Below are positions 20,729 through 29,402 of a DNA stretch of 64,000 nucleotides, in pieces. Both the position numbers and the translations under genes were made by a program. The DNA comes from Psychrobacter sanguinis (GTDB taxonomy: Bacteria; Pseudomonadota; Gammaproteobacteria; Pseudomonadales; Moraxellaceae). Where the stretch lies: positions 2,976,001 through 3,040,000 of the forward strand of contig NZ_CP085990.1 in assembly GCF_020736705.1 (NCBI RefSeq). Reading direction: 5' to 3'. Every line of letters begins with the position of its first letter. Position 1 is the stretch's first letter. The notes under the pieces are model-generated. The model had not been told where the DNA came from. It worked only from the letters and a program-made list of their open reading frames with translations, and ran no database searches.

Positions 20729-22486
20729 CTATTGCGGTGGCACCCAGCGATGAGGTAACAACTCATCCAGACCCTCTTGAGTAGGCAGGCGTCTTAGCAC
20801 GTCTGTCAAATAAGCAGACACATCCAAACCATTTAAGCGAGCTGACTGAATGATTGACATAATATTCGCAGCCCGCTGCCCACTTCGCAGCGAACCGGCA
20901 AACAACCAGTTTTTACGCCCAAGTGCCCACGGACGCATCTGATTCTCCGCCCAATTATTATCAATCGGCAGCCTGCCATCATCTAGATACTGAGTCAGCG
21001 CCTGCCAACGTTTCAGGCAATAATCCATCGCCTTACTAATACTGGCATTTTTAGTGGTTAACTGCCTTTTTTCTTGTAACCATTGGTGCAGCTTATCGGC
21101 AATCGGTTTGGCTTTTTCTTGCCTGATTTGCCGAACTATTTGGGGATCTCTTGGCATTGGGGGTGTATTTTTTTCAAATCGCTCGTCAATCTCACGTTCA
21201 ACAGCATACAACTGCCTAAATAACGTTAATGCCTCAATGCTCACGATACTTTGGCCAGTGATATGCAGTTCATGAAACTTACGCCGTGCATGGGCCAGAC
21301 AACCGATTTCTGTCACACCTTGATGAAATAAGAACTTATACCCGCTGTAATCATCGCAAACCAGCTTACCGCGCCACTTATCTAAAAAGGCTTTAGGATG
21401 CTCATTACGACGGCTTTCAGCAAAGTCATAGACCACCGCTTTTAAGGAGCTGTGCTGTGGCGTAAGATACGCCCAGACATAGCCTTTTTTTAATGATTTA
21501 CCACCTACCTTTACATGGTTCTTCATGATAGATACCGGGGTTTCATCGGCATGTAAGATAGGCTCAGACAGTAATAGTTCATGCAAGCGACTGACTAAAG
21601 GCTCAAGGGCAACGCCGCAGCGTCCTACCCAGTCTGCCATAGTAGCATCGGGGATATTTACCCCACTTCGCTGATAGATAATATTCTGCCGATATAACGG
21701 CTGATGGTCTGCATATTTGCTAATAAGGATGTGTGCAAGCAGCTCTGGGGTGGCGATGCTTTTGTTAATAATCTGCTTGGGGGTAGCCGCTTGATGAATG
21801 ATGTCACACTCACGGCATACCCATTTAGGGTAGATGTGACGCTCAATATAAAACTGCTTAGGGATAATGCCAAGTTTGTCTTGTTTATCCTCCCCAATTC
21901 GCTTCATTTGACAGCCGCAGTCACAGACGGTGGTAAGTGGTTCATGAACCCAGGTTTTCACCTCAAGGTTGTCAGGAATCACTGTGTATTTGGCACGCTT
22001 TGTTTTTCTAGGCTGATCAGTGGCTGAAGCTGGCAGCTCATCTGTGTTCTCTTTGCCGGCTTTAAGCTCACCCTCATTAATGAGGGTTTCTGCCTCAGTA
22101 CGATCAATCGCAGGCAGCTTGGCAAGCTCATCTTGGCTTAAGCCGCTAAGGTAGTCATCTCGGATTTGTTCAAGCTGCGCTAAGTCCTCTTGCGCGGCCT
22201 CATAGTTTAAGTGGGTTTGTCTGGCAGTGATGCCTTCGCTTTTTTGTCCATAGAGCCGGTGAATAAGCTGCTTTTGTTTTTCGATGAGTTCAAGCACTTG
22301 TTCATATAGCTTGTGGTTTTCCTCAACCACTTGGTTAAAAAGCTGCTGTAGTTGATCGTGACTTGTGTTCGTTTGAACAAGCTGTTGCTGCAGGTGCTCA
22401 TTACGCTGTTCAAGCAGGTGGATTTTCACCAGAAGCTCGGCGTAAATGGGGTCTTTTGATAAGTCGGATAAGTTAGCAACAGTCAT
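20729..22486 (-). CDS. tnpC: IS66 transposase TnpC
   Basis: The 585-residue DDE transposase of IS66. An N-terminal coiled coil (residues about 20-80, Leu/Gln-rich) is followed by a zinc-binding CDCGCQMK region. The catalytic Asp is in ILHADETPVSIM, the second in LVCDDYSGYKF, and the Glu is in NNWAENQMRPWALGRKNWLFAGS. All three acidic residues are present, so the protein looks functional. It is the last gene of the tnpA-tnpB-tnpC operon. Confidence 0.95.
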   Translation of the reverse strand: MTVANLSDLSKDPIYAELLVKIHLLEQRNEHLQQQLVQTNTSHDQLQQLFNQVVEENHKLYEQVLELIEKQKQLIHRLYGQKSEGITARQTHLNYEAAQEDLAQLEQIRDDYLSGLSQDELAKLPAIDRTEAETLINEGELKAGKENTDELPASATDQPRKTKRAKYTVIPDNLEVKTWVHEPLTTVCDCGCQMKRIGEDKQDKLGIIPKQFYIERHIYPKWVCRECDIIHQAATPKQIINKSIATPELLAHILISKYADHQPLYRQNIIYQRSGVNIPDATMADWVGRCGVALEPLVSRLHELLLSEPILHADETPVSIMKNHVKVGGKSLKKGYVWAYLTPQHSSLKAVVYDFAESRRNEHPKAFLDKWRGKLVCDDYSGYKFLFHQGVTEIGCLAHARRKFHELHITGQSIVSIEALTLFRQLYAVEREIDERFEKNTPPMPRDPQIVRQIRQEKAKPIADKLHQWLQEKRQLTTKNASISKAMDYCLKRWQALTQYLDDGRLPIDNNWAENQMRPWALGRKNWLFAGSLRSGQRAANIMSIIQSARLNGLDVSAYLTDVLRRLPTQEGLDELLPHRWVPPQ

Positions 22487-22528
22487 GGCGATATGTTGCC
22501 AGAGTTTTATTTGCCTGTCATCTGCTAT

Positions 22529-22873
22529 TTATAGGATGGGGGTTAATTTATCTTTGCCCATGTTACGCCAAGGCAGTCCACTGATTAAGGCGTTAAATTG
22601 TTCACGGTTGATGCTGATACCAGTCTGAGTGGTGGTGAGCGGCTTGGTTAAGCCATGAAATTTATTGTCATCGAGCTGACGGCTACAAAGCCATACGCCA
22701 AGCCCATCATGAATGAATACTTTTAGGCGTGTGCCTGCTTTGTTGTAAAACAGGTAGGCACAGTGAGGGCGAATGCTTTGGTGCTCGGTGAGGATGTAGG
22801 CCATTAGTTTGCCACTACCACATCGCATGTCCATAGGCGTGGTGGATAGCCAGATGTGAGTGATGGGTATCAT
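22529..22873 (-). CDS. IS66 accessory protein TnpB (Orf2)
   Basis: A 114-residue protein with the family signature TTPMDMRCGSGKL near the N-terminus and the LFYNKAGTRLKVFIHDGLGVWL core. It is needed for IS66 transposition, though its exact role is unclear. It overlaps the end of tnpA by four bases (ATGA), which suggests coupled translation. It is unrelated to the RNA-guided TnpB of IS200/IS605 despite the name. Confidence 0.93.
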   Translation of the reverse strand: MIPITHIWLSTTPMDMRCGSGKLMAYILTEHQSIRPHCAYLFYNKAGTRLKVFIHDGLGVWLCSRQLDDNKFHGLTKPLTTTQTGISINREQFNALISGLPWRNMGKDKLTPIL

Positions 22874-23265
22874 TGCAGCCCTCGTAGTAGGTCAATCAAG
22901 CTTTGAGTGTCTATTTGGCTAATGTTGAGGTTTATCGTCCCAGATGCTCGAGCTGTGATTTGCAGTTTGATGTTCTTTATGACGGATGCTGAGCGTAGAT
23001 GCGCACCTTCAGGCTCAAGATGGATTGGGATAAAGTGCGGGTTTGGATCATGAGACCTGTTTATAGCACCAGGTAATGTGTCAGCTTGAGCATGTGCCCG
23101 CTGATACTGGCGTTTCCAGTTATGTAGAAGGTTTTGGTTAATGCCATGCTCTCGGGCAATGCTGGCAATTGATCGACCTGAGTCTGTCGCTTCTTTTACT
23201 AAAAGCGCTTTAAACTCAGCGCTGTAAGTTCTTCGTTTGGGTTTATTAGGGGGTTGTGTTGTCAT
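22870..23265 (-). CDS. IS66 protein TnpA (helix-turn-helix)
   Basis: A small DNA-binding protein with the transposase-8-like helix-turn-helix RRTYSAEFKALLVKEATDSG through INQNLLHNWKRQYQR. I chose the ATG at 23265 (MTTQPPNKPKRR). An upstream ATG at 23307 in the same frame is possible, but the stretch between them forms a hairpin (23269-23298) near the element end. Confidence 0.85.
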   Translation of the reverse strand: MTTQPPNKPKRRTYSAEFKALLVKEATDSGRSIASIAREHGINQNLLHNWKRQYQRAHAQADTLPGAINRSHDPNPHFIPIHLEPEGAHLRSASVIKNIKLQITARASGTINLNISQIDTQSLIDLLRGLQ

Positions 23266-23268
23266 GTT

Positions 23269-23298
23269 AGTGTCCACGATTATTTGTTCATGGACACT
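23269..23298. repeat. Hairpin in the IS66 tnpA leader
   Basis: AGTGTCCA and its complement TGGACACT, separated by 14 bases, just upstream of the preferred tnpA start. The same structure is present in copy 2 (51607-51636). Confidence 0.7.
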
Positions 23299-23346
23299 AT
23301 CTCGCATTTTTTAATAGAAAAAAAGATGGGATGGTCGGATGCTTAC

Positions 23347-24037: not shown

Positions 24038-24550
24038 ATGTATTCATCATTAAAAATTTCGGCAATTACCCTAGTTTCTGCAGCGCTTTTAAGTACAGTG
24101 GGTTGTGCCACTAAGCCTAAAAACTCTGAGTTTGTGGTAGCTCCTATGGCTGTACCTGGTAATGCAGCTTACCAAACAGGTCCTTTGGTGAATAATTCAG
24201 CAGAAGTACAAGCCGCTGCTCAAAATGTGCGTAGCATTGTTCGCTTCCCATTTGATAGCAGTGAGATTGAAGCTGAAGCAGCTAGCATTTTGAATGATCA
24301 AGTGGCTTTTTTAGCCAGCCACCCAGATGCTAGAGTATTAGTAGCTGGTCATACTGATGAACGCGGTAGCCGTGAATACAACCATGCATTAGGTGAGCGC
24401 CGTGCACAAGCAGTTAGAAACTATTTGGCTAGCCAAGGTGTGACTGATGCTCGAGTTGAAACTATCAGCTATGGTGAAGACCGTCCGGTTGCCGCTGGTA
24501 CTGATGAAGCCTCTCACACTCAAAACCGTCGTGCAGAATTATCTTATTAA
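24038..24550 (+). CDS. pal: Peptidoglycan-associated lipoprotein Pal
   Basis: An outer-membrane lipoprotein of the Tol-Pal system that ties the outer membrane to peptidoglycan during division. The lipobox STVGC puts the lipidated Cys at residue 23. The OmpA-like domain (about residues 68-170) has RFPFDSSEIE, GHTDERGSREYNHALGERRAQAV and QNRRAELSY, with the peptidoglycan-binding Asp and Arg. The 170 residues are normal. A GAGGA ribosome-binding site precedes the ATG. The other tol genes are not in the window; upstream are insertion sequences. Its own terminator is broken by an IS4-family insertion about 100 bases after the stop. Confidence 0.95.
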   Translation: MYSSLKISAITLVSAALLSTVGCATKPKNSEFVVAPMAVPGNAAYQTGPLVNNSAEVQAAAQNVRSIVRFPFDSSEIEAEAASILNDQVAFLASHPDARVLVAGHTDERGSREYNHALGERRAQAVRNYLASQGVTDARVETISYGEDRPVAAGTDEASHTQNRRAELSY

Positions 24551-24633
24551 TCTATTTATGTTAAGAAATACCTTGTTAAGATAAACCGAATTTAAACACA
24601 TAAATTAATAAAGTAAATTTGAAATGACCGTTT

Positions 24634-24651
24634 AAAGACCTAGCTTAGGCT
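24634..24651 (+). terminator. Pal terminator, 5' half (split by an IS4 element)
   Basis: Joining 24632-24651 to 26056 onwards restores a stem AAAGACC.AGC / GCT.GGTCTTT with a four-base loop TTAG and a T run. The element sits across the loop. The 3' half is at 26056-26064. Confidence 0.8.
24642..24651. repeat. 10-bp target duplication, left copy (AGCTTAGGCT)
   Basis: Repeated at 26046-26055 on the other side of the IS4-family element. The duplicated bases are themselves a small palindrome, the tip of the pal terminator. Confidence 0.9.
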
Positions 24652-24692
24652 GTAATGCCAGTCAGTTAAGGCAAAAACTCCCTAAAAGTAAT

Positions 24693-24727
24693 AAAATAGC
24701 CCATCTAATAAGTAGATGGGCTATTTT
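24693..24727 (+). terminator. Terminator-like hairpin at the left end of IS4 copy A
   Basis: A perfect 15-bp stem (AAAATAGCCCATCTA with TAGATGGGCTATTTT) and a five-base loop. The transposase start codon (24716) lies in its 3' arm. It should stop transcripts entering from pal, and would also hide the start codon in any read-through RNA. Copy B has the same hairpin at 27100-27134. Confidence 0.65.
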
Positions 24728-26035
24728 ACTATAAGACTACAAGACGCTATTAATGAGACGCATAAAAGGATCCCAGACACCCTAGAACAATTTAGTGAAT
24801 TAATAGACCCTGAGTGGATACAGCAGGCTTTAGAATATACGGGCAAAGCGAGCATTAGAAGACGTAAGCTACCTGCCGAACACGTTGTTTGGATAGTCAT
24901 CGGCACAGCTTTATATCGAAACCGTTCCATCTGGTATATCACAGAGCAAATGCGGCTTAATATAGACTCCCAGGCCTGTGTGCCCAGCGCTGGGGTACAA
25001 GCAAGACAACGCCTCGGGCATGAGCCTCTAAAGCAGCTATTTCATCAACTAAGTACTCACTACCAAACAGAATCACGAGCCCAGCAGCAAGACTTCATGG
25101 GACTTAGCGTCCAAGCTGTAGACGGCGTCGTATACTCACTCCCATACACTGATGAGAACCTTCAGCACTTTAGCTCAAGCAAAGGCAGAACTAAAGAGGC
25201 GCCCTATCCCCAAATGCGTTCGGTATGTCTGATCAATACTGACACGCATGAGATCATTGACACAACCCTTGCAGATATGGGTCAAGGAGAGATCACCTTA
25301 GCCCGTCAGCTAAATGTTCAAGACAACAGCATTACGCTCTTTGATAGAGCCTATTTCTCAGCAGACCTACTGATTAGTTGGCAACAAGCCCATCCAAACA
25401 GCCACTGGCTCATGCGGGCTAAAGATAATCTGCGTTACACTGTGATTGAAACCTTTAGTGAAGGGGACTACTTAATACAAATGCCCGTCTCTCCCCAAGC
25501 TCAAAAGAAAAATCAAAACCTACCTGCTACTTGGCAAGCTCGATTAATTGAGTGTCGTTATGAGGGTAAGACAAGACGATACATCACCTCTTTAATAGAT
25601 GATAAACGATTTACTAAGGATAAAGTGGCACAGTTTTACTTGCAGCGCTGGGAGATCGAGATGGCTTTTAGGGAAATTAAGTCTGATTTACAGCAGGGGC
25701 TGTTGTTAAGAAGTAAGCTGCCACAGCTTGTGTTACAAGAGTTCTGGGGGCTTATGATTGCTTATAATCTGATAAGACGTTTGATGCGATATATGGCTCT
25801 TAGAGCTAAGGTTAGCCCTCTACGAATCAGCTTTCATATGGCGTCTATTACGATTGTCGATCTGTTACGGTTTGCACCTTTACAGGCTGCAGGACTCTTC
25901 CCTAAGTTGTTAGATGCACTTTTAGAGGAAGGAAAATTGTTTGTTATTCCTGAACGCAGAAAGCGATCTTGCCCGAGGGTGGTTAAGGGCAAACCACAGA
26001 AATATCCAAAAAAAATACCAGTCAGCCTTAACTGA
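24716..26035 (+). CDS. IS4-family DDE transposase, copy A
   Basis: A 439-residue transposase with an N-terminal IS4 domain (LEQFSELIDPEWIQQALEYTGKASIRRRKLPAEHVVW) and a DDE core. The catalytic Asp is in VQAVDGVVYSLP, the second in ITLFDRAYFSADLL, and the Glu is in LQRWEIEMAFREIKSDLQQG (the YREK-like signature). It is open from end to end, so the element may still be active. Translation begins inside the 3' arm of the left-end hairpin. Confidence 0.93.
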   Translation: MGYFTIRLQDAINETHKRIPDTLEQFSELIDPEWIQQALEYTGKASIRRRKLPAEHVVWIVIGTALYRNRSIWYITEQMRLNIDSQACVPSAGVQARQRLGHEPLKQLFHQLSTHYQTESRAQQQDFMGLSVQAVDGVVYSLPYTDENLQHFSSSKGRTKEAPYPQMRSVCLINTDTHEIIDTTLADMGQGEITLARQLNVQDNSITLFDRAYFSADLLISWQQAHPNSHWLMRAKDNLRYTVIETFSEGDYLIQMPVSPQAQKKNQNLPATWQARLIECRYEGKTRRYITSLIDDKRFTKDKVAQFYLQRWEIEMAFREIKSDLQQGLLLRSKLPQLVLQEFWGLMIAYNLIRRLMRYMALRAKVSPLRISFHMASITIVDLLRFAPLQAAGLFPKLLDALLEEGKLFVIPERRKRSCPRVVKGKPQKYPKKIPVSLN

Positions 26036-26039
26036 CTGG
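26008..26039 (-). terminator. Terminator at the right end of IS4 copy A (minus strand)
   Basis: On the minus strand CCAGTCAG pairs with CTGACTGG around a six-base loop and is followed by eight T. This is a canonical Rho-independent terminator facing transcription that enters from the right flank. Confidence 0.7.
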
Positions 26040-26055
26040 CATTACAGCTTAGGCT

Positions 26056-26064
26056 GGGTCTTTT
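26056..26064 (+). terminator. Pal terminator, 3' half
   Basis: GGGTCTTTT, the 3' arm and T run of the terminator whose 5' arm is at 24632-24651. Confidence 0.65.
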
Positions 26065-26098
26065 GCATTTAAGAGTTAGTATTATTGTGGATATCACT

Positions 26099-26896
26099 AT
26101 GAGTAATATAATATTAAAAGACGTACACTATTTCAGCTTTGATGATAAAGGTAATGATTTACCCCTATCTTCACCGCTCATTACTACTTGGATCGCTGTC
26201 GCCACCTTAGAGTATGGAGACAATGATGGTAGAGATCTGGCTAAACCTTTAAGCACTATACCGGTTAGTAACCAACTTCAGAAATATGCCGTAAGAAAGC
26301 TACTTTACCAATTGGCATTTAAACGGTTTGAAGCAGCTGGCTTCCAGTATGTTGATGATTATAGAGAAATCTATAGTGAAAACAATAAAGCTACTGAACC
26401 TTATGATTTATTAAGTCAACAACATCTAGCCCTTATTGATACCAATTTCCCTTATCGCTTACTGCCTTTTAATTATTACGTTTGCTTTAGTCATTCAAGT
26501 AATCAAGTCACTTGCGCTATTAATAAATACTGCCCTATTGGCATTGATACCGAAATAAATACTATATCACTACAGGTAGCACAACGTTTTTACAGTAGTA
26601 AAGAAATTCAATGGTTACAGCAGCTAAGCCCCGATCAGCGATCAGAGGCCATAAGCGTATTATGGATGTTAAAAGAAACTTTAATAAAGAAAACCATGGC
26701 AAATGAAGCCAAATTATTGTCTGGGCTTAAAAAAAATATGCTGCTTGCTGCAAAGGACCTATTGCCTTCATATCAAAATAAAAAGCGCAGCTCTTTTAAT
26801 ACCATTAGGACTGTTTCCTCTCAAACTATAAGCAAACCTTCAAAGAATACCATTTATGTTTATCTACCTAAATATAATTTAATTGCTATGTGGTAA
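26099..26896 (+). CDS. 4'-phosphopantetheinyl transferase (Sfp type)
   Basis: Transfers phosphopantetheine from CoA to carrier proteins. The two diagnostic motifs are present: CPIGIDTEI (the metal-binding Gly-Ile-Asp-x-Glu) near residue 155 and LWMLKETLIKK (the WxxKE motif) near residue 200, with YYVCFSHSSNQVTCAI just before the first. I use the ATG at 26099 (265 residues) since an upstream TTG frame runs into the IS end. No NRPS or PKS gene is nearby, so the target may be the fatty-acid ACP, an aryl carrier or a reductase. The C-terminal 60 residues are basic and low in conservation. Confidence 0.85.
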   Translation: MSNIILKDVHYFSFDDKGNDLPLSSPLITTWIAVATLEYGDNDGRDLAKPLSTIPVSNQLQKYAVRKLLYQLAFKRFEAAGFQYVDDYREIYSENNKATEPYDLLSQQHLALIDTNFPYRLLPFNYYVCFSHSSNQVTCAINKYCPIGIDTEINTISLQVAQRFYSSKEIQWLQQLSPDQRSEAISVLWMLKETLIKKTMANEAKLLSGLKKNMLLAAKDLLPSYQNKKRSSFNTIRTVSSQTISKPSKNTIYVYLPKYNLIAMW

Positions 26897-27040
26897 AGCA
26901 ATCTTTACTACAAAATGAATTAAGTGTAATCCTATCTTTATTAGTTACTATTTCTTAGTAAAATCAAATTATTCTTAATTAAAATAGATAAATAGCTGAG
27001 TAAGCCATAGGTCAAAGATAACAAAAAATTTCTAGCACAA

Positions 27041-27058
27041 AAAAGCACCCCCGAAGGA
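27041..27058. terminator. Outer-membrane gene terminator, distal half (split by IS4 copy B)
   Basis: Together with 28442-28463 this restores a minus-strand hairpin: AAAAAAGCAC..CC, tetraloop TTCG, GG..GTGCTTTTTT. The element lies in the loop region. Confidence 0.8.
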
Positions 27059-27099
27059 GTAATGCCAGTCAGTTAAGGCAAAAACTCAATAAAAGTAAT

Positions 27100-27134
27100 A
27101 AAATAGCCCATCTAATAAGTAGATGGGCTATTTT
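27100..27134 (+). terminator. Terminator-like hairpin at the left end of IS4 copy B
   Basis: The same 15-bp perfect stem and five-base loop as in copy A, with no base changed although the rest of the element has drifted. Confidence 0.6.
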
Positions 27135-28431
27135 ACTATAAGACTACAAGACGCTATTAATGAGACGCATAAAAGGATCCCAGACACCCTAGAACAATTT
27201 AGTGAATTAATAGACCCTGAGTGGATACAGCAAGCTTTAGAGTATACCGGCAAAGCGAGCATTAGAAGACGTAAGCTACCTGCCGAACACGTTGTTTGGA
27301 TAGTCATCGGCACAGCTTTATATCGAAACCGTTCAATTTGGTATATCACAGAGCAGATGCGGCTTAATATAGACTCACAGGCCTGCGTACCCAGCCAGCG
27401 CTGTGGTAAAAGCAAGACAACGCCTCGGGCATGAGCCTCTAAAGCAGCTATTTCATGCTCACTACCAAACAGAATCACGAGCCCAGCAGCAAGACTTCAT
27501 GGGACTTAGCGTCCAAGCTGTAGACGGTGTCGTATACTCACTCCCATACACTGATGAGAACCTTCAGCACTTTAGCTCAAGCAAAGGCAGAACTAAAGAG
27601 GCGCCCTATCCCCAAATGCGTTCGGTATGTCTGATCAATACTGACACGCATGAGATCATTCACACAACCCTTGGAGATATGGGTCAGATCACCTTAGCCC
27701 GTCAGCTAAATATTCAAGACAATAGCATTACGCTCTTTGATAGAGCCTATTTCTCAGCAGACCTACTGATTAGTTGGCAACAAGCCTATCCAAACAGTCA
27801 CTGGCTCATGCGGGCTAAAGATAATCTGCGTTACACTGTGATTGAAACCTTCAGCGAAGGGGACTACTTAATACAAATGCCCGTCTCTTTTCAGGCTCAA
27901 AAGAAAAATCCAAACCTACCCGATACTTGGCAAGCTCGATTAATTGAGTGTCGTTATGAGGGTAAGACAAGACGATACATCACCTCTTTAATAGATGATA
28001 AACGCTTTACTAAGGATAAAGTGGCACAGTTTTACTTGCAGCGCTGGGAGATTGAGATGGCGTCTCGAGAGATTAAGTCTGATTTATAGCAGGGGCTGTT
28101 GCTAAGAAGTAAGCTGCCACAGCTTGTGTTACAAGAGTTCTGGGGGCTTATGATTGCTTATAATCTAATAAGACGTTTGATGCGATATATGGCAATTAGA
28201 GCTAACGTTAGCCCTCTACGAATTAGCTTTCATATGCCGTCTATTACGATTGTTGATCTGTTACGGTTTGCTCCTTTACAGGCTGCAGGACTCTTTCCTA
28301 AGTTGTTAGATGCACTATTAGAGGAAGGAAAGTTGTTTGTTATTCCTGAACGCAGAAAGCGATCTTGCCCAAGGGTGGTTAAGGGGAAACCACCGAAATA
28401 TCCAAAAAAAATACCAGTCAGCCTTAACTGA
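27123..28431 (+). pseudogene. IS4-family transposase, copy B (inactivated)
   Basis: Compared with copy A: extra bases near 27394 shift the frame, a small deletion near 27455 removes a few codons, and a CAG to TAG change at 28087-28089 stops translation right after the catalytic Glu region. Pieces of the frame remain open (27123-27434, 27403-28086, 28099-28431). No functional transposase can be made without several corrections, but copy A could act on its ends. Confidence 0.9.
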
Positions 28432-28435
28432 CTGG
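28404..28435 (-). terminator. Terminator at the right end of IS4 copy B (minus strand)
   Basis: The same CCAGTCAG / CTGACTGG stem plus eight T as in copy A. Here it faces transcripts of the outer-membrane protein gene at 28488, whose own terminator the element interrupts. Confidence 0.7.
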
Positions 28436-28441
28436 CATTAC

Positions 28442-28463
28442 CCCGAAGGAGTGCTTTTTTACA
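28442..28463 (-). terminator. Outer-membrane gene terminator, proximal half
   Basis: The 5' arm (minus strand AAAAAAGCACTCC then TTCGGGG) of the interrupted terminator; the other arm is at 27041-27050. Confidence 0.75.
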
Positions 28464-28487: not shown

Positions 28488-29402
28488 TTAGAAGCGGTAA
28501 GTTAAACCAGCTTTAACGATTGGGTACCAAACATCATTATCTTCGATGTCTTTACGAGCTTCTTCTTTGAATTTCTCAGTAGCATCAACGCCATTTACAG
28601 TTACATTTTTCGCATCAATGTTGGCATCCATTTTGCCCATATAGGCTGCACCGATTTCACCAAATAGACCCCATTTCTGATCAATATTTGGATGATAACC
28701 GATAGTTAAGTAAGGAGCTAGTGTGTTTCTGTTTTCTACTTTAGCATCAACATAACCACCTGCTTGTGCATTAGCTACAGTATATTTAGTGCCATTAATC
28801 TTAATGTCAGCACCATTTGCATTATCGGTAGTTAGACGAGCTTTAAGCTCGTTATCTGGAACGATAATACCAGTACCAACAGTGAAGTTAGTTGCCCATG
28901 GACGTAAGTTAACACCAAGGTATGGGTTGCTGAAGTCAGCGTCATATTTCATGTCGCCTTGGAAGTTACCGTAACCATCACCTAGTGCTTTACCCCAGTT
29001 GATCCAAGAATCGCTAGCATCTAAATCTTTAGTACCGTCGTCGCTGAAACCGTTCCAACCAGCAGTTAGTTCAGTAGTATCGTTTAAGCCCCAAGCAATG
29101 TTAGCACCATAACCTAAAGTACCAATCTCAGCACTTACTGCAGCTGGGTGAACAACTGTGTCAAAGATAGTTCTAGTAGTACCAACAACAGCACCAGTAG
29201 TGTTAGCGATAACGCCAGCATTTTGGTCATATTGGTAAGCAACTGGTTGAGCATCAACAACAACTACTTGGTTAGCTGGTTGAACGTCTGTTACTACTAC
29301 TGCTGGTTGTGTTTCATATACAACAGCTTGGTTAGCAGCCATAGCAGCTACTGATGAACCTAATACTGCAGTAGCAACTGCGGTTAATTTAAAAAGTTTC
29401 AT
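28488..29402 (-). CDS. Outer-membrane beta-barrel protein
   Basis: A 304-residue exported protein. The signal peptide MKLFKLTAVATAVLGSSVAA ends with a cleavage site after AMA. A Val/Gln/Pro-rich linker (residues about 25-60) is followed by alternating strands rich in Gly and aromatics (YGANIAWGL, ELTAGWNGF, PYLGVNLRPW, TLAPYLTIGY, WGLFGEIGAAY). It ends in TYRF, the terminal Phe recognised by the BAM machinery. It resembles small OmpW- or OprF-N-like barrels, but the family is not certain. The ATG has a GGAG site nine bases upstream. The long leader can form a hairpin (29459-29541). Confidence 0.8.
   Translation of the reverse strand: MKLFKLTAVATAVLGSSVAAMAANQAVVYETQPAVVVTDVQPANQVVVVDAQPVAYQYDQNAGVIANTTGAVVGTTRTIFDTVVHPAAVSAEIGTLGYGANIAWGLNDTTELTAGWNGFSDDGTKDLDASDSWINWGKALGDGYGNFQGDMKYDADFSNPYLGVNLRPWATNFTVGTGIIVPDNELKARLTTDNANGADIKINGTKYTVANAQAGGYVDAKVENRNTLAPYLTIGYHPNIDQKWGLFGEIGAAYMGKMDANIDAKNVTVNGVDATEKFKEEARKDIEDNDVWYPIVKAGLTYRF

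Follow-up and report, generated by a model that had tools for sequence, protein, structure and literature searches.

The insertion sequence (IS) described here, an element of the IS4 subgroup, is present as two copies, A and B, in a 64,000-nucleotide stretch of the Psychrobacter sanguinis genome (RefSeq assembly GCF_020736705.1, contig NZ_CP085990.1, positions 2,976,001 to 3,040,000 of the forward strand; hereafter the window, in whose numbering all positions are given). Comparison of copies A and B with copies in other genomes strongly supports the conclusion that the transposase selects rho-independent terminators, inserting at the symmetry axis of the hairpin and duplicating about 11 bp (9-13 bp) of target across its tip.

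Copies were gathered by DNA search, protein search and end pattern. A threshold of E ≤1e-30 gave the transposase, or a piece of it, in 25 of the 348 Moraxellaceae genomes searched, and the bare end pattern was seen in 65 of the 348, part of these being a different short repeat that has the same terminal 17 bases alone. Targets were analysed for 102 non-identical full copies with usable flanks from 18 genomes (four Psychrobacter genomes contributed 24 copies and 14 Acinetobacter genomes 78), a set that does not include every copy in the two genera. Two further loci, L199 with a single end and L238 with an insert inside the element and a terminator recognisable by eye, were fetched and kept outside the counts. 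A target site duplication (TSD) was present in 96 of the 102 copies, with a length of 11 bp in 47, 10 bp in 21, 12 bp in 21, 13 bp in six and 9 bp in one. The six copies dropped for want of a TSD (L068, L072, L130, L161, L195 and L225) each have flanks that by eye are half a terminator, and the missing TSD likely results from recombination between copies.

A site was scored as a terminator if it contained a hairpin of at least six pairs with a loop of 3-9 nt, at most one mismatch and at least three G-C pairs, with A at five or more of the seven positions before the stem or T at five or more of the seven after it. The first version of this rule recognised 90/96 restored sites, and four of the six misses were artefacts in which the T-tract lay inside the stem; the rule was then altered equally for targets and background. 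Terminators with an axis no more than 1 nt from the TSD centre were found at 94 of the 96 restored sites, the exceptions being L009 and L027. Axes located 1.5-40 nt away in the same loci, used as a control, satisfied the rule in 3 of 12,642 cases, and the background over all axes was 611/796,800 in 400 kb of Psychrobacter sequence and 719/796,800 in 400 kb of Acinetobacter sequence. As five axes were tried per target, the probability of a chance match is approximately 0.4% per site. A preliminary description of the window, which had proposed terminator targeting from copies A and B, named a majority of other copies in non-hairpin sites as the result that would speak against it; this was looked for, and the pattern found was instead terminator targeting on a broader scale than proposed.

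The flanking sequences outside the terminator formed 88 clusters, and one pair alone (L213/L141) clearly represents the same locus. An open frame ended towards the site in 93 of the 96 copies, at a median distance of 37 nt (frames, as distinct from annotated genes), and frames ended towards the site on both sides in 49; no bias in the orientation of the element towards the flanking gene was seen among copies with long flanks (22 vs 22). By a loose test for an A-tract alone, 41 of 43 one-ended flanks from Psychrobacter draft genomes were positive, some sites being seen twice, as were 17/17 ends of the element's type at further Acinetobacter-family loci, compared to 7/17 Acinetobacter-family ends that share the terminal repeat alone. 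Unoccupied sites were also found. The pal terminator interrupted by copy A is intact exactly at the insertion point in two Psychrobacter genomes that have no element there (L313 and L315). In a third genome the pal terminator contains the element (L314), and as the near-identical flank of L315 is empty, this terminator was probably hit twice independently.

In the window, both copies of the 1.39 kb element are in direct orientation and are 95% identical. Excision of copy A restores the pal site as AAAGACCTAGC-TTAG-GCTGGGTCTTT, an 11 bp stem (-16.5 kcal/mol, z -4.6 relative to shuffled sequences), and excision of copy B restores the minus-strand site as AAAAAAGCACTCC-TTCG-GGGGTGCTTTTTT (-18.6 kcal/mol, z -5.6, by the same comparison). 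The preliminary description had copy A splitting the terminator of pal at its tip, which is borne out by the restored hairpin and by the TIGR02802 match of pal; the duplication of copy A does lie at the hairpin tip, but it is 11 bp in length (10 plus one G) rather than the 10 bp given. For copy B, the split hairpin is likewise restored at the tip, while the outer-membrane gene to which it was attributed, at 28488, is CarO-like at most. The proposal of two independent events also holds, since the copies are 95% identical and their TSDs differ, indicating separate insertions. The positions of the features are given in Table 1.

Table 1 Positions of the element copies, their targets and the neighbouring genes in the window
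Feature	Position	Strand	Details
Copy A, IS4-subgroup element (core)	24653..26044	+	TAATGCC...GGCATTA; variable G/C just outside
TSD of copy A, left	24642..24652		AGCTTAGGCTG, 11 bp
TSD of copy A, right	26046..26056		AGCTTAGGCTG, 11 bp
Split pal terminator, 5' arm	24634..24641		AAAGACCT
Split pal terminator, 3' arm	26056..26063		GGGTCTTT
Intact transposase of copy A, IS4 family	24716..26035	+	439 aa; D136-D210-E315, YREK
Left-end hairpin, copy A	24689..24731	+	Reads inwards; -22.4 kcal/mol, z -7.5
Right-end terminator-like stem and T8, copy A	26008..26043	-	Reads inwards from the right; -18.9 kcal/mol, z -5.4
Copy B	27060..28440	+	Transposase frame broken, three open reading frames
TSD of copy B, left	27049..27059		CCCCGAAGGAG
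TSD of copy B, right	28441..28451		CCCCGAAGGAG
Split terminator of CarO-like gene, one arm	27039..27048		AAAAAAGCAC
Split terminator of CarO-like gene, other arm	28452..28460		TGCTTTTTT
Left-end hairpin, copy B	27096..27138	+	
Right-end terminator-like stem, copy B	28410..28439	-	Faces the CarO-like gene
pal	24038..24550	+	Terminator split by copy A; TIGR02802, 134.5 bits
CarO-like outer-membrane protein gene	28488..29402	-	Terminator split by copy B; 98 bits vs cut-off of 300
4'-phosphopantetheinyl-transferase-like gene	26099..26896		Between copies A and B

The core of copy A is flanked by an extra G at 24652 and an extra C at 26045. Among copies L001-L074 the base just outside TAATGCC varies between G, C, T and A, and the boundary of the element can be placed only to within one base: the exact core ends fit most copies, and in four an additional base has to be included at one end or at both. 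The genome from which the window derives has ten full copies of the element and three partial matches. One copy in this genome is apparently split by approximately 2 kb of other DNA (L011 and L013), its outer flanks by eye still being half terminators, and one flank of a truncated copy (L012) lacks an A-tract.

The target sites share features beyond a hairpin. The half-site derived from each cut was A-A-A-A-(A/G)-(G/A)-C-C^C-Y-C (^ marks the cut), and the distance from the edge of the A-tract or T-tract inwards to the cut was 2-4 nt for 189 of the 192 half-sites. The two tracts were spaced 14-20 bp apart in 94/95 targets (one of the 96 sites was left out of this comparison) vs 77/127 strong two-tract background terminators, and TSD length rose with tract spacing (Spearman 0.56, p 3e-9, slope 0.34). 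Both tracts were present in 83/89 strong targets vs 58/127 and 70/144 strong background terminators. Relative to a background of 18 Psychrobacter and 59 Acinetobacter terminators in which both tracts are present at the right spacing, of which the genus mix differs from that of the targets, C was preferred at five positions of the 5' arm, with p values of 2e-5 to 2e-7 that are too small because one half of a hairpin depends on the other. As G-C and C-G pairs fold much alike, this preference looks like one for sequence, not structure. Strong terminators were under-used if their tracts were separated by more than 20 bp, if they had a single tract or if their 5' arm was G-rich, and L009 and L027, which have no hairpin by the rule, retain the symmetry of A-tract and T-tract; these observations favour recognition by reading of the duplex sequence, to which structure possibly contributes. 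On duplex DNA, a pair of transposases would read two half-sites in inverted orientation, each approximately AAAAAGCC^CYC, and a bidirectional terminator of the right size would thus be a near-ideal target without the hairpin as such being recognised. This choice of target would place the element a few tens of bases behind stop codons and, in about half of cases, between convergent genes. In the background, 63 of the 67 sites with a motif score of 16 or above, calculated with independent columns, had at least six inner pairs; high motif scores are therefore almost sufficient to mark hairpins, and sequence reading would be expected to find terminators, with covariation of their arms.

The element also carries terminator-like stems at both ends. 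The perfect 15 bp hairpin noted at the left end in the preliminary description folds in copy A as an uninterrupted stem of 16 bp, with the transposase ATG (24716) inside its 3' arm, and the inward-facing right-end stem with eight T, also noted there, is present and is built with the terminal repeat. Left ends that were less than 85% alike without gaps were chosen from 120 elements, giving 23 ends for comparison. A stem within bases 36-91, with a T-run at its end or after it, was found in 23/23 left ends vs 19/460 shuffled sequences, and an ATG directly followed the T-run in 19 of the 23 elements. The rule as first applied gave 17/23, and 23/23 was obtained after a change like that made to the target rule and reorientation of L145, the shuffled sequences being scored by the changed rule. 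By gapped identity the left-end stems fall into 18 groups at 90%, 15 at 80% and 8 at 70%. A right-end stem with a T-run, in the terminal repeat or its neighbourhood, was found in 16/23 elements vs 20/460 shuffled sequences; E. coli IS4 and the eight closest Psychrobacter and Acinetobacter types have one, and the divergent Acinetobacter element L145 does not. As anatomy, then, the description of an element that brings its own terminators holds for the elements compared. Since both stems read inwards, transcripts arriving from either neighbour would soon meet a stem. It is plausible, in line with the proposal in the preliminary description that the element repairs the termination it destroys and so limits its cost to the host, that these stems terminate transcription in the cell: they would stop transcripts from flanking genes and so shield the transposase from read-through, and would spare the host by replacing the termination that insertion destroys.

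Eighteen divergent relatives with 35-42% transposase identity were analysed, from Photobacterium, Klebsiella, Aeromonas, Vibrio, Pantoea, Salmonella, Pseudoalteromonas, E. coli, Burkholderia, Rhizobium and one Acinetobacter (L145). A TSD was found in 17/18, and a terminator by the rule at 15 of the 17 sites; this count leaves out the Acinetobacter copies L343 (same site as L140) and L342, with both of which it becomes 17/19. L354 and L369 have no exact TSD. Of 11 E. coli IS4 loci retrieved, eight were joined, the remaining three being one in a gene, one at the adhE terminator without a direct TSD and one set aside; the rule recognised 5/8 joined sites. The adhE-tdk interval of E. coli contains IS4 in two strains in opposite orientations. 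At the adhE terminator (L369), the flanking repeats look mutually inverted (CCCCAGAAGGGG and CCCCTTCTGGGG), with the loop as if flipped. Terminator homing is common in the IS4 subgroup, and its strictness varies. On balance it seems likely that the subgroup is largely a terminator-homing clade, in which the bidirectional form of the terminator serves as attachment site and a replacement terminator is located at the transposase start; the host terminator would be swapped for that of the element, in a self-insulating, low-cost arrangement whose conservation would extend from Psychrobacter as far as E. coli and Burkholderia.

The whole of the evidence is probably best explained by a terminator-homing element of the IS4 subgroup that reads duplex half-sites and carries its own inward-reading terminator-like stems. 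A number of findings weigh against this explanation. The T-run of the left hairpin in the window element has just four T; 12 of the left stems have an outer AATC...GATT in common, so that the 23 left ends are not fully independent; and a right-end terminator was not found in 7/23 elements. Two divergent relatives missed by the rule, a Vibrio ISVvu2 copy (with an off-centre hairpin by eye) and a Rhizobium copy, count in the same direction, as does the less strict targeting of E. coli IS4, of which 3/8 joined sites and the one site in a gene are not terminators. The remaining points concern the hairpin itself. Pairing in the inner stem exceeded all 500 partner shuffles at eight positions, covarying beyond independent columns, which is expected if the targets are real terminators. 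At motif scores of 12-20, hairpins were present in 13/13 targets vs 44/57 background sites, and at scores of 4-12 in 2/5 targets vs 106/249 background sites. Together with insertion at the axis, the covariation and the excess at scores of 12-20 speak for recognition of an extruded cruciform or hairpin tip, as the preliminary description had suggested in proposing that cruciforms or RNA hairpins are targeted. However, terminators whose tract spacing exceeds 20 bp should extrude no less readily than those used, and one-tract terminators and those with a G-rich 5' arm fold equally well, yet all of these are under-used. Furthermore, L009 and L027 were used without a hairpin by the rule, and TSD length stays at 9-13 bp with no one-for-one growth with the stem. 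As the mechanism of site choice, recognition of a cruciform or hairpin is probably wrong, although structure may contribute.

Selection of the site by transcription, with the transposase drawn by pausing of RNA polymerase, by the hairpin of the nascent RNA or by the supercoiling that arises where genes converge, would account for nearly all sites being located behind open frames, 49 of the 96 between two converging ones. This is improbable given that the far-side A-tract, which is irrelevant to one-way termination, is enriched alongside the T-tract, and that tract spacing and arm composition matter; transcription could help on top of sequence reading. The position of the copies behind stop codons, where insertion should be benign, might also be attributed to untargeted insertion followed by survival of only the harmless copies. 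As 94/96 insertions lie within 1 nt of the axis and other axes in the same loci so rarely qualify (3/12,642), selection cannot explain the placement, and survivor bias is rejected with near certainty.

The element is a DDE (Asp-Asp-Glu) insertion sequence of the IS4 subgroup. The copy A transposase matched NF033592 with 243.9 bits (cut-off 115) in a profile search, and PF13006 and PF01609 above their gathering scores. Its catalytic residues D136, D210 and E315, with spacers of 73 and 104, agree with the D(60-110)D(100-150)E spacing by which the IS4 family is defined in PMC2266710, and the Y(2)R(3)E(6)K motif of the family is present in the translation as YLQRWEIEMAFREIK. The transposase is encoded by a single open reading frame (ORF) in copy A (439 aa), and this frame is broken in copy B. 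The ends, TAATGCCAGTCAGTTAA, conform to the pattern -AATR--------WTW listed for subgroup IS4 in Table 1 of PMC2266710, and the 10-13 bp TSD of the subgroup fits 95/96 copies (mode 11), with one read as 9 bp. At about 1392 bp, the element falls slightly short of the 1400-1650 bp given as typical of the subgroup in PMC2266710.

E. coli IS4 agrees with the element in the type of its ends, in the length of its TSD, in having a terminator-like stem at the left end and in its use of terminators as targets (at five of the eight joined sites), and differs in having a transposase that is about 35% identical and less strict targeting. A 1984 study reportedly located IS4 in the attenuator of pheST and gave AAA...TTT as a rule for its targets. 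The ends and TSD length of subgroup IS4, as described in PMC2266710, match those of the element, and some members of the subgroup are stated there to have striking target-arm specificity. Words beginning "terminator" are absent from the text of PMC2266710, its target figure lying outside this statement, and prior notice of the target consensus in that figure is possible. ISRm22, of the IS4 family, inserts in repetitive extragenic palindromic (REP) sequences; according to PMC1525189, it and other REP-targeting IS likewise use extragenic palindromes, the targets being REP repeats and not terminators. IS231A has a TSD of 10-12 bp (PMC2266710, Table 1), and a title cited in PMC2266710 names its target consensus and DNA bending. 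Membership of the IS4 family, a similar TSD length and target specificity are what it has in common with the present element. To our knowledge, no terminator preference is known for IS231A.

Group IIC introns are mobile and use intrinsic terminators as landing sites. They are retroelements that insert beside the stem through RNA, with no DDE transposase and no TSD; the element described here lacks a reverse transcriptase and intron RNA, its sole long ORF encoding a DDE transposase. In IS10, IS50 and IS200, transposase expression from transcripts that enter from outside is dampened by a hairpin close to the transposase start; this hairpin resembles the left-end hairpin in position, and it is not tied to a terminator-homing choice of target. 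No title or abstract opening on IS4-type elements targeting terminators was found in a literature search that covered few subscription papers, and the general rule of terminator homing looks new to the literature searched.

With this rule, targets are clearly defined for a widespread IS group: a common expression signal serves as landing site at near single-base precision. The rule predicts the sites that copies will occupy, and makes available a DDE transposase whose insertions fall behind genes rather than inside them. If the insulating role is true, it would explain how ten or more copies per genome are carried with little damage. IS4-type copies may alter the 3' ends of transcripts, and in tandem gene pairs the downstream gene would depend on the efficacy of the terminators of the element.

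A composite transposon formed by copies A and B around the phosphopantetheinyl-transferase-like gene was considered and is unlikely, as each copy has its own TSD; L313, which by eye has a similar gene start beyond its empty pal terminator, also counts against it. Elsewhere in the window, ORFs of 585, 114 and 145 aa at 20729-23307 are presumably of IS66 type. Transposase-less stretches between the same terminal repeats as those of the element were also seen (L165/L228, 351 bp; L156, 289 bp; L175/L230, 148 bp). By eye, the 351 bp form is located at a terminator-like site and the other two are not (e.g. target GGGTTAGGGG); these could be miniature inverted-repeat transposable elements, and a relative that follows a different target rule may have mobilised some of them. 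Finally, terminator-like hairpins on ATGCCAGTCAGT...ACTGACTGGCAT, which is the right-end sequence of the element, occur in Psychrobacter at L036, L041, L042 and L100 with no other element sequence nearby in the match, and could be remnants of the element or the origin of its right end.

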